Source: Halorubrum sp. BOL3-1
Lineage (GTDB): Archaea > Halobacteriota > Halobacteria > Halobacteriales > Haloferacaceae
Direction of reading: 5' to 3'
Length of the DNA: 64,000 nucleotides
Assembly (NCBI RefSeq): GCF_004114375.1
Contig: NZ_CP034692.1
Location: 2,480,001-2,544,000, forward strand
Below, piece by piece: positions 6,498-38,660 of this stretch (position 1 is the first letter of the stretch; every line of letters begins with the position of its first letter). Below the pieces are notes generated by a model that was given only the letters and a program-made list of their open reading frames with translations, had not been told where the DNA came from and ran no database searches. The position numbers and the translations under genes were made by a program.

Positions 6498-7340
6498 TCA
6501 CTGTTCGATCCCGTACACGTCGCCGGTCCAGTCGCGGGCCGGCGTGTCGTACACCGGCGCGTCGCGGTCGCGCTCGTCGAGCCGCCGGCGGTCGGCCTCG
6601 TCCAGCTCCCAGTCGAGGGCGGCGTTGGCCCGGACGTGGTCCGGGGTCGACGACCCCGGCAGCGGGACCACGCCCCTGTCGATCGCCCACCGAACGACGA
6701 CCCGTGCGGGGTGCTTGTCGTACTCCTCGGCCAGTTCGGCGACGACCTCGTCGCCGAACACGTCGGTCCGCGCGAGCGGCGCCGCGGCCTCGATCACGGT
6801 GTCGGTCTCGCGGCAGTAGTCGACCAGATCGGGGCGCTGGAACCACGGGTGGAACTCGACTTGGTTGACCGCGATCGGCACGTCCGAAACGTGATGGGCG
6901 CAGCTCAGCTGGTACGCGCTGAAGTTCGAGACGCCGACGTCGCGGACGAGGCCGCGGTCGCGAAGCTCCGCCATCGCCCGGAGGGTCTCGCGCAGCGAGA
7001 TCGCGGGGTTCGGCTAGTGGATCAGGTACAGGTCGAGGTAGTCGGTGCCGAGCCGGTCGAGCGACGCCTCGCACGAGTCGATCACCGACTCGTAGCTGAG
7101 GTTCTTCGCGAGCACCTTCGAGGTGAGGAACGCGTCGCCGCGGTCGACGCCGCTCGCCGTCAGCGCGTCGCCGATGACGGCCTCGTTGTGGTACCCCTCG
7201 GCGGTGTCGACGTGGCGGTAGCCGGCGTCGAGCGCCGCGCGGACGCTCGCCGCCGTTTCGTCGTCGTCGAGGTCGTACGTGCCCAGTCCGAGCGCCGGCA
7301 GCTCGGCGCCGCTCGGGAGCGTCTTCGGTGGTACAGTCAC
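6498..7340 (-). pseudogene. Aldo/keto reductase interrupted by an in-frame TAG
   Basis: A 280-codon aldo/keto reductase frame (NADPH-dependent carbonyl reductase) that is intact except for one TAG at 7014-7016. Upstream are 'LGLGTYDL', 'GYRHVDTAEGYHNE' with catalytic Asp and Tyr, 'FLTSKVLAKN' with catalytic Lys, and 'LDLYLIH' with catalytic His. The stop follows the His directly, where the family has Trp (TGG). The same frame then resumes with 'PNPAISLRETLRAM', 'VGVSNF' and 'RWAIDRGVVPLPGSSTPD', the cofactor-binding C-terminal half. One G-to-A change explains the lesion. The truncated product would lack the NADPH site. The likely start is GTG 7340. Recent decay, sequencing error and readthrough are all possible. 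Confidence 0.85.
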
Positions 7341-7462: not shown

Positions 7463-7735
7463 GCGCGAGGGAGTCGACCGGTCGGAGCGAAGCGGAGACC
7501 GGCCGACGAGGCTGGGGAGGTGTGAGGTGCGGTTGCTGTGCGGTCGGGCGGGACTCGAAGGGGCAGCCGCGAGGCGAGCAGAGGCGACGTAAGCACCGCA
7601 GCGAGCACCCCGAGCGAGGAGCGCAACGAGCGTCTGCTCGCCTCGCGGCTGGGGCTTCGGCGGTCTCGGTGATCGAGTTCACTCTGACGGGATTCGTCAC
7701 GTACAGCCGAGCGGCTGGGGGTCCGGGAGTGTTCA
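7463..7735 (+). repeat. Structured dispersed repeat, copy A
   Basis: First of three related copies in this window (others near 32.04-32.24 and 38.34-38.55 kb). Conserved boxes in order are GCGAGGGAGTCG, GGGGAGGTGTGAGGTGC, GAAGGGGCAGCCGCG and GGCTGGGGCTTCG. Stem I pairs 7473-7483 with 7497-7507 (one mismatch) around a loop containing GAGCGAAGCGG. Stem II is a perfect 18-base inverted repeat, 7565-7582 with 7633-7650. A second degenerate form of the last box occurs near 7710-7720. The orientation shown is arbitrary; whether it acts as DNA or RNA is unknown. Confidence 0.8.
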
Positions 7736-7804
7736 GCGCATAAGCGTCAACGTATAGCCGACGACTGGATATTTCCGGTCTCGATCGCAGAATGTACCAG
7801 CCGA

Positions 7805-7833
7805 GACTCCCGCGAGCAACGCGAGCGGGAGTC
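7805..7833. repeat. Hairpin with 11-base GARCGNAGYGA-like loop
   Basis: Perfect 9-base stem (GACTCCCGC with GCGGGAGTC) around the 11-base loop GAGCAACGCGA. It is the first of three hairpins in 190 bases that share loop length and a related loop sequence while their stems differ. Confidence 0.7.
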
Positions 7834-7834
7834 A

Positions 7835-7875
7835 GGCCGGTGGATCTTCGAGCGTAGCGAGAAGATCCACCGGCC
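7835..7875. repeat. Hairpin with 15-base perfect stem and 11-base loop
   Basis: Stem GGCCGGTGGATCTTC with its exact complement, around the loop GAGCGTAGCGA. The 3' arm merges into a tRNA-like 3' end (7866-7892), so the stem appears to be built from tRNA acceptor-end sequence. Confidence 0.75.
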
Positions 7876-7892
7876 GAGATTCGAACTCAGAA
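7866..7892 (-). pseudogene. tRNA 3'-half fragment (T arm plus acceptor strand)
   Basis: On the minus strand this reads as a T arm with loop TTCGAAT, a T stem that still pairs (one G-U), and an acceptor 3' strand CCGGTGG followed by A. It resembles the 3' end of tRNA-Gly at 7993-8063 but differs at several positions. No matching D arm or anticodon arm is found next to it. Tandem duplication or an old integration scar are both possible. Confidence 0.55.
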
Positions 7893-7968
7893 TCAGACGT
7901 GCTCGCTCGCGGCTTCGCCGCTCGCACCGCTCGCTGCGCGCGACTGATAGCGTTCAAATCACTCGGTG

Positions 7969-7993
7969 ATTTCTCTCACTACGTTCGAGAAAT
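7969..7993. repeat. Hairpin with 11-base loop abutting tRNA-Gly
   Basis: ATTTCTC pairs with GAGAAAT around an 11-base loop that reads GAACGTAGTGA on the minus strand. Its outer base is the discriminator position of tRNA-Gly, so a transcript leaving the tRNA would fold here directly. It could help 3'-end formation, or it may be a copy of the dispersed hairpin family. Confidence 0.6.
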
Positions 7994-8063
7994 GCACCGG
8001 CCGAGATTTGAACTCGGGTTGCAACCATGGCAAGGTTGCGTGATACCACTACACTACCGGTGC
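7993..8063 (-). tRNA. tRNA-Gly (GCC)
   Basis: Complete 71-base cloverleaf on the minus strand. The acceptor stem is GCACCGG/CCGGTGC with discriminator A, the anticodon stem CAACC/GGTTG encloses loop TTGCCAT (anticodon GCC), and the T arm CCGAG/CTCGG has loop TTCAAAT. CCA is not encoded, as is usual in archaea. No intron is visible. The gene lies divergent from the sugar dehydrogenase gene and is preceded on its 3' side by the hairpin cluster. Confidence 0.96.
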
Positions 8064-9614: not shown

Positions 9615-10481
9615 ATGCGTACCGAAGACGGACTCACGATCTGCGTTCCGTCTTCGCTCGTCCGGGAGGCCGAGGACGACCGCGAGGCGACTCGCAAACT
9701 CGGCTACGTCGCCCGTGCGGCGGCGGTGTTCCGGGCGGATCGGCTGGTCGTCTTCCCCGACCGGGAAGGCGACGGTCGACGGGACGGGGAGTACGTCCGC
9801 ACCGTGCTGGGGTACGCCGCGACGCCGCCGGATCTCCGAAAGGACCTCTGGGGGCAACGCGACGAACTCCGGTACGTCGGCGTGCTACCCCCGCTCCGCG
9901 TGCCGTGGCGGACCGGCTCGACCCCTAGCGGGGAAGAGTCGAAAACACAGGGACTCGTGACTGAGGTCGGACCTGAAGGCCGCGTCCGGGTCAATTCCCC
10001 GCTGCGGGAACACCCGATCTCCCTGCTCGTTCCCTCCGGAACGGAGGTCGAGCAGGGGGAGCGCGTCACCATCAGGGTCTCTTCGAGAGAACCGGTCCGC
10101 GCCCGCATCGCCGGGAAGCCCGAGGCGGGCTTCCAGGTCGTGGCCGCGGACCTGTCGGAAGCGCTCGCCGGCGACGGACTGGCCGTCGCGACGTCGCGAC
10201 ACGGGGAGGAACTCTCCGTCTCGCGGCTCGGCGGCCTCGTCTCGGACGCGCGGGAGGCCGGCGGATACACCGTCGCCTTCGGCGCGCCCGAGCGGGGGCT
10301 TCCGGAGATGCTCGGGCTTTCGCCCGACCGCATTCGGGCGGCCGTCGCCGACGGCCGCTCGGTCGAACCCGATCCGGGGTTCGACCTCTGGCTGAACACG
10401 ATCCCGGCACAGGCGAGCGAGGTCGTCCGGACGGAGGAGGCTCTGTTCGCGACCCTCGGCTCGCTCACACTCACGGAGTAA
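9615..10481 (+). CDS. Putative RNA uridine N3 methyltransferase (SPOUT, DUF171 family)
   Basis: A 288-residue SPOUT-superfamily protein with the archaeal DUF171/Methyltrn_RNA_3 layout: an N-terminal SPOUT half ('LTICVPSSLVREAEDD', 'ADRLVVFPD'), an inserted OB-like beta domain (about 100-160, 'GRVRVNSPLREHPISLLVP') and the C-terminal knot half ('YTVAFGAPERGLPEML', 'NTIPAQASEVVRTEEALF') that should bind S-adenosylmethionine. The likely substrate is rRNA. It precedes uL3 by four bases, the usual archaeal position at the head of the S10 cluster. A TATA-like box at 9570-9578 gives a short leader before ATG 9615. Confidence 0.85.
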   Translation: MRTEDGLTICVPSSLVREAEDDREATRKLGYVARAAAVFRADRLVVFPDREGDGRRDGEYVRTVLGYAATPPDLRKDLWGQRDELRYVGVLPPLRVPWRTGSTPSGEESKTQGLVTEVGPEGRVRVNSPLREHPISLLVPSGTEVEQGERVTIRVSSREPVRARIAGKPEAGFQVVAADLSEALAGDGLAVATSRHGEELSVSRLGGLVSDAREAGGYTVAFGAPERGLPEMLGLSPDRIRAAVADGRSVEPDPGFDLWLNTIPAQASEVVRTEEALFATLGSLTLTE

Positions 10482-38242: not shown

Positions 38243-38660
38243 ACCATCGCTGGGGACCGTTCGAACTTAAAAACCGCGCGAGTGAGAGCCGATTACTGCG
38301 GTGGCGCGTGCCGGTGAGCGCCGCACCGCGGCGCGAACCGCACGCGCGAGGGAGTCGCGAACGAAGTGAGCGACGAGGCCGGGGAGGCGTGAGGTGCGGT
38401 TGCTGTGCGTTCCCGCGAGCAGCGTGGCGCTGCGCGCCGGCTGCCAGAGAATCTTCGATTCTCGCGGCTGGGGCTTCGACGGTGTTCACGGCCGTGGCGA
38501 TTTCAACGACGTATTGCCGAGCGGCTGGGGCTTCGACGGTGTTCGCAGACGACCCGGATCTATCCGTGTACAGCAGAGCCACTGAGGGTACGACGGCATT
38601 CTACGAGACGGGGGAACGTTACCGAACTACCGGGAACCTGCTGACCTCCTCCACGACCGG
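38243..38660. other. Intergenic spacer holding structured repeat copy C
   Basis: No supported gene between the start of the RimK-type gene and the 3' end of aIF1A. The structured repeat (about 38343-38547) fills the middle. The left 40 bases contain the promoter of the ligase gene, and the last 110 bases hold nothing recognised. Confidence 0.7.
38343..38547 (+). repeat. Structured dispersed repeat, copy C
   Basis: Third copy. Box GCGCGAGGGAGTCG leads into stem I, GTCGC (38354-38358) with GCGAC (38370-38374), around the 11-base loop GAACGAAGTGA. GGGGAGGCGTGAGGTGC follows, then stem II, CCGCGAG (38413-38419) with CTCGCGG (38461-38467), enclosing two smaller hairpins. The last box, GGCTGGGGCTTCGACGGTG, occurs twice about 57 bases apart. 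The A-like GAAGGGGCAG box is missing, so this copy is partly degenerate or a shorter subtype. Confidence 0.75.

Follow-up and report, generated by a model that had tools for sequence, protein, structure and literature searches.

The nearest known systems found for the repeats described here are the PATEs and small mobile repeats (SMRs) of the haloarchaeon Haloquadratum walsbyi. According to their description (Dyall-Smith et al. 2011, PMC3119063), both are gene-less palindromic repeats that make no target duplication and show insertion polymorphism between strains; PATEs have IS605-related near-terminal palindromes, SMRs are bounded by terminal inverted repeats and keep a conserved sequence, and modules bounded by tRNA tails are not mentioned in the passages covered. 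The modules reported below share these general features and are likewise haloarchaeal, but differ in their free stems, fixed tip, tRNA-tail copies and lack of a link to Y1 transposases. Unlike the highly similar copies of an SMR, modules at different tRNAs have a common architecture, not a common sequence. In bacterial REPs, the stem sequence and a flanking tetranucleotide are conserved, and the repeats depend on REP-associated Y1 enzymes. The haloarchaeal hairpins resemble REP/BIME elements in being short, intergenic, numerous in each genome and sometimes arranged in arrays, whereas conservation here is in the tip, on top of a free stem. The attC sites of integrons are folded single-strand sites that are read by shape, with a largely free stem sequence, and form arrays of tandem units; in contrast, the modules are too short for genes, carry no cassette genes, and their units end in a copy of the neighbouring tRNA's tail. 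Integrases targeting tRNA genes are expected to leave copies of the tRNA from the T-loop to the 3' end downstream. The direct downstream copies seen here also start in the T-loop, but they are spaced by about 70-140 nt and have a common hairpin architecture, an inverted box matched to the tRNA and no adjoining integrase gene. The C(GNA)G triloop is known from d(GCGNAGC) mini-hairpins and from phage N4 promoter hairpins, and its stability in DNA is particularly high. Those hairpins are single, phage or synthetic, whereas a class-wide chromosomal family with an additional facing GA step was found here. The sequence GCGAAGC has been printed in several papers as an extraordinarily stable hairpin.

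The 64-kb window, i.e., the whole stretch of Halorubrum DNA that was analyzed, contains three hairpins with different stems and 11-base loops, which had been reported in the earlier note and were all perfect in the sequence check (Table 1). A GARCNNNGYGA loop on a stem of at least 7 bp occurs in the window only in these three; the fourth example in Table 1 has a shorter stem. All three are located in two modules downstream of the tRNA-Gly gene, and each module terminates with a tRNA 3'-end copy. The GA strand of hairpins 1 and 2 is opposite to the tRNA-Gly strand. In relatives these two hairpins recur jointly as a single module, and part of the neighbouring tRNA-Gly 3' end is contained in the arms of hairpin 2; the stems, described as free in the earlier note, do differ between copies but are thus not unrelated to their surroundings. 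The tip of hairpin 1 has AAC instead of GNA, while its counterparts in other Halorubrum have GNA; hairpin 1 is a deviant copy. The two inner pairs of hairpins 1 and 2 were drawn by a folding program, which left the tip of hairpin 3 open, with modest stability. In the Rfam scan of the window, no curated RNA family was found at the hairpins, the only matches being tRNA and a ribosomal leader.

Table 1. Features of the tRNA-Gly locus and one further tip in the 64-kb window (positions are those of the window).
Feature	Position	Strand	Description	Basis
tRNA-Gly(GCC) gene	7993-8063	-		ARAGORN, Rfam, sequence
Unit T	7993-8014	-	AGTTCAAATCTCGGCCGGTGCA; last 22 nt of tRNA-Gly, copied downstream	
Module 1	7866-7992	-	127 nt: hairpin 3, inverted T box, middle hairpin, T copy; copy ends 127 nt past the tRNA	
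Hairpin 3	7969-7993	-	ATTTCTC-GAACGTAGTGA-GAGAAAT, immediately 3' of tRNA-Gly; tip GA-AC-GTA-GT-GA	
T' box	7952-7960	-	GATTTGAAC; T-loop portion of the tRNA tail, copied in inverted orientation	Sequence
Middle hairpin of module 1	7907-7923	-	GA-GCGGC-GAA-GCCGC-GA; facing GA, 5 bp, GNA triloop	Sequence
tRNA 3' end copy (L237)	7866-7887	-	AGTTCGAATCTCGGCCGGTGGA; 20/22 identical to T	Sequence
Module 2	7794-7865	-	~72 nt: hairpins 2 and 1, then degenerate short tail copy TCTCGGCTGGTACA	Sequence; module also in relatives
Hairpin 2	7835-7875	+	15-bp stem, loop GAGCGTAGCGA; right arm overlaps copy of T	
Hairpin 1	7805-7833	+	9-bp stem GACTCCCGC, loop GAGCAACGCGA	
Tip in dispersed repeat	38354-38374	+	GAACGAAGTGA, 5-bp stem; within GCGAGGGAGTC..GACGAGG	Pattern scan

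The frequency of the pattern was compared with that in shuffled sequence, as the earlier note had proposed. Without a stem, GARCNNNGYGA was counted 44 times in the window versus 27 expected; because this stemless pattern is frequent by chance in G+C-rich DNA, the signal is carried by the stem together with the exact tip. With a stem of at least 6 bp, the pattern occurred 11 times in 194 kb of intergenic DNA of the source Halorubrum genome, sampled by stretches, partly around motif matches, with related loci that are not independent and an intergenic split made by a simple codon-usage gene caller; 100 dinucleotide shuffles of this DNA averaged 0.01 occurrences, with never more than 1. The GNA version of the pattern was found 43 times (2.1 in shuffles), and 12 times with a stem of at least 5 bp (0 in shuffles). 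Among the hairpins with an 11-base loop and a stem of at least 10 bp in 80 ribosomal-operon loci and the window, the tip was present in only 1 of 11, because these loci are mostly coding.

The rules of the tip were determined by enumeration in 512 kb of noncoding haloarchaeal DNA; the all-DNA versions of the inner-pair and loop statistics were blurred by codon periodicity. Between GARC and GYGA, the four GNA triloops, among 64 possible, accounted for 152 cases against 6.5 expected (observed/expected: GAA, 74/1.9; GGA, 32/2.2; GCA, 28/1.4; GTA, 18/1.0), and no other triloop was strongly enriched. The inner pairs GC (83 observed, 4.5 expected) and AC (69 and 2.0) were at the top of the 16 possible, the excess of CC, GT and CT being much weaker. 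Positions 3 and 9 of the tip covary, with 83 G-C and 69 A-T combinations compared with 8 A.C and 6 G.T (Fisher p ~6e-30), and the tip is closed by C-G or T-A (pyrimidine-purine) in 122 of the 152 cases. In the frame of a C-G-closed triloop with exactly two pairs and GA/GA flanks, GNA was observed 61 times versus 4.6 in shuffles, all other triloops together 78 versus 59. GNRA tetraloops were not prominent. The stems below have free sequences that differ between copies, and a second GA/GA step follows after 2 or 5 bp in many hairpins. The enrichment of GNA, of the pairs and of the flanks is the signature of a fold. From the sequence rules, a folded tip is a better description than an "11-base loop": a GNA triloop sits on two covarying RC/GY pairs, flanked by GA steps that face each other (tandem G.A). 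The proposal of a single loop type stands as far as the shared tip is concerned, but the loop is not open, since pairs form inside it, its GA steps face each other and GNA is enriched in it. The sheared geometry of the G.A pairs and the DNA state of the tip are presumed. An alternative absent from the earlier note is that the tip is kept because it is self-folding. The folded tip and the tRNA-tail architecture themselves are considered very probable, much more so than the recombination role discussed below.

The conservation of a tip on a free stem, noticed earlier at a single locus, extends across the class. The motif GAACGNAGTGA was present in all 242 Halobacteria genomes searched, representing 74 genera, usually in tens of copies versus 0-3 for the reversed control. 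Outside Halobacteria it was at the control level in most families of the phylum and mildly above it in two (f14 and f16). A few Halobacteria genomes (G018, G196, and G129) are almost devoid of GAACGNAGTGA, and comparison of their gene content with that of motif-rich genomes could point to a protein involved. In the sampled loci, 357 of 396 distinct matches were outside called genes; 29 of 203 motif copies were within 600 nt of a tRNA, and most copies were elsewhere. The viral contigs searched with the long H1 pattern gave no match, and with the short pattern GCGAACGNAGTGAGC the number among the matches listed was, by our own estimate, attainable by chance alone. Genome G138 contains arrays in which two kinds of hairpin alternate. 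Alternating hairpin arrays were seen in L175 (9300-9780, minus strand) and L186 (2800-3070), composed of GCGARCGGSGARCGNAGYGASCCGYGAGC and a second type with GGAACCANC arms. A fold that is readable from genome sequence, follows sharp rules and occurs in every haloarchaeal genome searched is unusual. The tip rules provide a concrete search string for a class of DNA-level hairpins and suggest a role for single-stranded DNA in high-salt cells.

An association of the hairpins with tRNA genes, which the earlier note had suggested examining, proved strong at the 3' flanks. A tail copy was defined as a sequence at least 17/22 identical to the last 22 nt of a tRNA and at most 400 nt downstream, with each tRNA counted once. 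Such copies were found downstream of 34 of 101 haloarchaeal tRNAs (13 of 48 in the source genome and 21 of 53 in other Halobacteria), rates that are partly biased since some of the loci from other Halobacteria were picked for holding the motif, while the source-genome tRNA loci and one further set were picked by tRNA only. No tail copy was detected upstream of the 101 haloarchaeal tRNAs or at the 34 outgroup tRNAs. A tip was located within 400 nt in 29 of the 34 tRNAs with a tail copy, compared with 12 of the 67 without one (p = 5e-11). The copied block comprises positions -22 to -1 of the tRNA, from the T-loop to the discriminator base, and has sharp edges; the copies were selected on these 22 nt, and the drop to background just outside them was not subject to selection. 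Near-full inverted tail copies were found at 6 of the 101 tRNAs.

In the typical module, the 22-nt tail is followed by two hairpins with an inverted T-loop box between them and then by a further 22-nt copy; such modules are about 70-140 nt long and gene-less. The inverted T-loop (T') box lies between the tail and its copy in most modules, and in a swap test it fitted its own tRNA better on average (19.8 vs. 14.9), though not in every case. In Halorubrum, the spacer downstream of tRNA-Gly often contains strings of hairpins joined by tail copies, whose number and order depend on the species and which are missing in some. Modules of the same architecture, without a common sequence, are also located at other tRNA types and in several families. 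T-rich stretches follow the tRNA ends and many of the tail copies. Exact tandem duplications of tRNA-tail modules were observed in L096 (16823-17042) and in L164, past the tRNA-Leu at 1943, with periods of about 110 and 125 nt. The tails are unlikely to stem from reverse-transcribed mature tRNA, the bases after the listed copies being T-rich or varied and not CCA. The literature searched, which took in few subscription journals, contained no paper matching the motif or the tRNA-tail repeats and no earlier account of the arrangement of the modules.

Filled and empty states could be compared between species. A 122-nt module that closes with an exact 22-nt tail copy is present in Halorubrum xinjiangense (L006) and absent from both H. 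distributum (L005) and Halorubrum sp. CSM-61 (L014), where the tRNA runs straight into the DNA that follows the module in H. xinjiangense, with 60 of 60 bases identical; this exact case comes from a single locus compared in one group of species and fits insertion as well as deletion. Other species pairs show a similar pattern at lower identity, and the modules vary between species with edges at the tRNA-tail copies. Ordinary recombination between the 22-nt direct repeats could account for gain and loss of modules. The tRNA-tail modules represent a natural experiment on the spread of gene-less repeats.

The best explanation of these data, to which a probability of about 0.5 is assigned, is a DNA-level, shape-dependent role of the hairpins and modules in recombination. 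In this reading, the window hairpins belong to a haloarchaea-wide family of DNA hairpins whose self-folding tip sits on a stem of any sequence. The tip combines a C(GNA)G triloop with two Watson-Crick pairs (RC/GY) and with 5'-GA/GA-3' steps that face each other, presumably as sheared tandem G.A. By analogy with integron attC sites or the end hairpins of IS200/IS605, the hairpins would give a single strand the right shape, which would be read while the stem sequence stays free, and modules may be inserted, lost or exchanged through recombination at the tRNA tail. A more tentative proposal is an undescribed haloarchaeal recombination system, in which single-strand-folded gene-less modules would move in and out at tRNA 3' ends with the 22-nt tail as the joint, and the scattered hairpins would be its wider footprint. 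If the modules are mobile, haloarchaea should have a DNA-shape-reading enzyme other than the known Y1 transposase.

Alternatively, the modules might be remnants of integrative elements, with a tyrosine integrase crossing over in the T-loop and with elements that repeatedly entered and left the tRNA 3' ends, leaving att-site copies separated by short scars, and with hairpins as leftover integrase-binding palindromes. The position of the copies, downstream, nearly always direct and running from the T-loop to the tRNA 3' end, agrees with this explanation, as do the 18 integrase-domain matches in the source genome. The nearest of these to the window tRNA-Gly is about 15 kb off; no match adjoins a tail-copy tRNA among the tRNAs tested in the source genome, and the one located about 0.7 kb from a tRNA (C3:84742) is beside a tRNA that shows no tail copy. 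Since the modules are also very short, have one architecture at many tRNA types in several families and contain an inverted T box matched to the tRNA, and since the identical tip type is widespread away from tRNAs, an origin from integrative elements is considered unlikely.

The tips could also act as RNA hairpins in tRNA trailers or untranslated regions, in termination, in stability or as a fold that prevents pairing between trailer and tRNA. In the 400 nt downstream of tRNAs, 54 tips were on the tRNA strand and 25 on the opposite strand (p = 0.0015), and an RNA role may therefore apply there; the T-rich stretches past the tRNA ends and many copies would suit it as well. In gaps between tandem genes, however, 78 tips were sense and 87 antisense (p = 0.53), and this near-equal strand use favours a DNA feature over RNA. 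The same is indicated by positions 3 and 9, where G.T does not outnumber A.C as G.U would be expected to do in RNA, and by the lack of prominent GNRA tetraloops. Considering, in addition, the orientation of hairpins 1 and 2 opposite to the tRNA and the Rfam result at the locus, a general RNA function is judged rather improbable, and the acting form is presumably the folded DNA strand.

A purely mutational origin, in which template switching on the nascent strand builds and repairs palindromes and successive fold-back copying yields tail, inverted tail and tail, without selection or mobility, is regarded as quite improbable. The T, T', T order of the modules, the long perfect stems, the exact tandem duplications in L096 and L164 and the free stem sequences are in line with it. 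Under fold-back copying, however, the facing GA steps would become matched pairs, but these steps persist, including the second one, 2 or 5 bp further on. The rules for GNA and RC/GY are also highly specific, and near-full inverted tail copies are rare relative to direct ones.

The earlier note cited IS200/IS605-type Y1 transposases as a precedent for the recognition of such hairpins. No detectable Y1 match was present in 35 of 116 Halobacteria genomes, and the number of motif copies per genome, averaged by hand from two tables, was about 31 in 20 Y1-less and about 33 in 30 Y1-bearing genomes. Around 20 Y1 genes, five motifs were counted in 47 kb of noncoding DNA, which equals the background density; the only motif within 0.5 kb of a tnpA at these loci (L438, ~0.27 kb) was stemless. 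Targeting or movement of the hairpins by an HUH Y1 transposase (of the IS200/IS605 type or a REP-associated TnpA) is thus most improbable and, for the Pfam Y1 family, largely refuted by family presence and flank density, even though single-strand hairpin recognition is the known mode of these enzymes and IS605-related palindrome-associated elements have been described in a haloarchaeon (PMC3119063).

Several other features were observed in the window. The ribosomal leader matched by Rfam (L4-Archaeoglobi, positions 9973-10075) lies ahead of the ribosomal protein L3 gene, which has its closest relatives in Halorubrum. An aldo/keto-reductase-like gene on the minus strand (6498-7340) has an in-frame TAG near 7013 (..DLYLIH*), which divides it into ORFs 7014-7340 and 6498-6974. 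A dispersed repeat, GCGAGGGAGTC..GACGAGGCTGGGGAGG, is located at positions 7465, 32038, and 38346 of the window and elsewhere in the sampled Halorubrum DNA, and has a hairpin slot with a stem that varies by copy; among its 28 distinct copies in the sampled DNA, 10 have a GNA tip.
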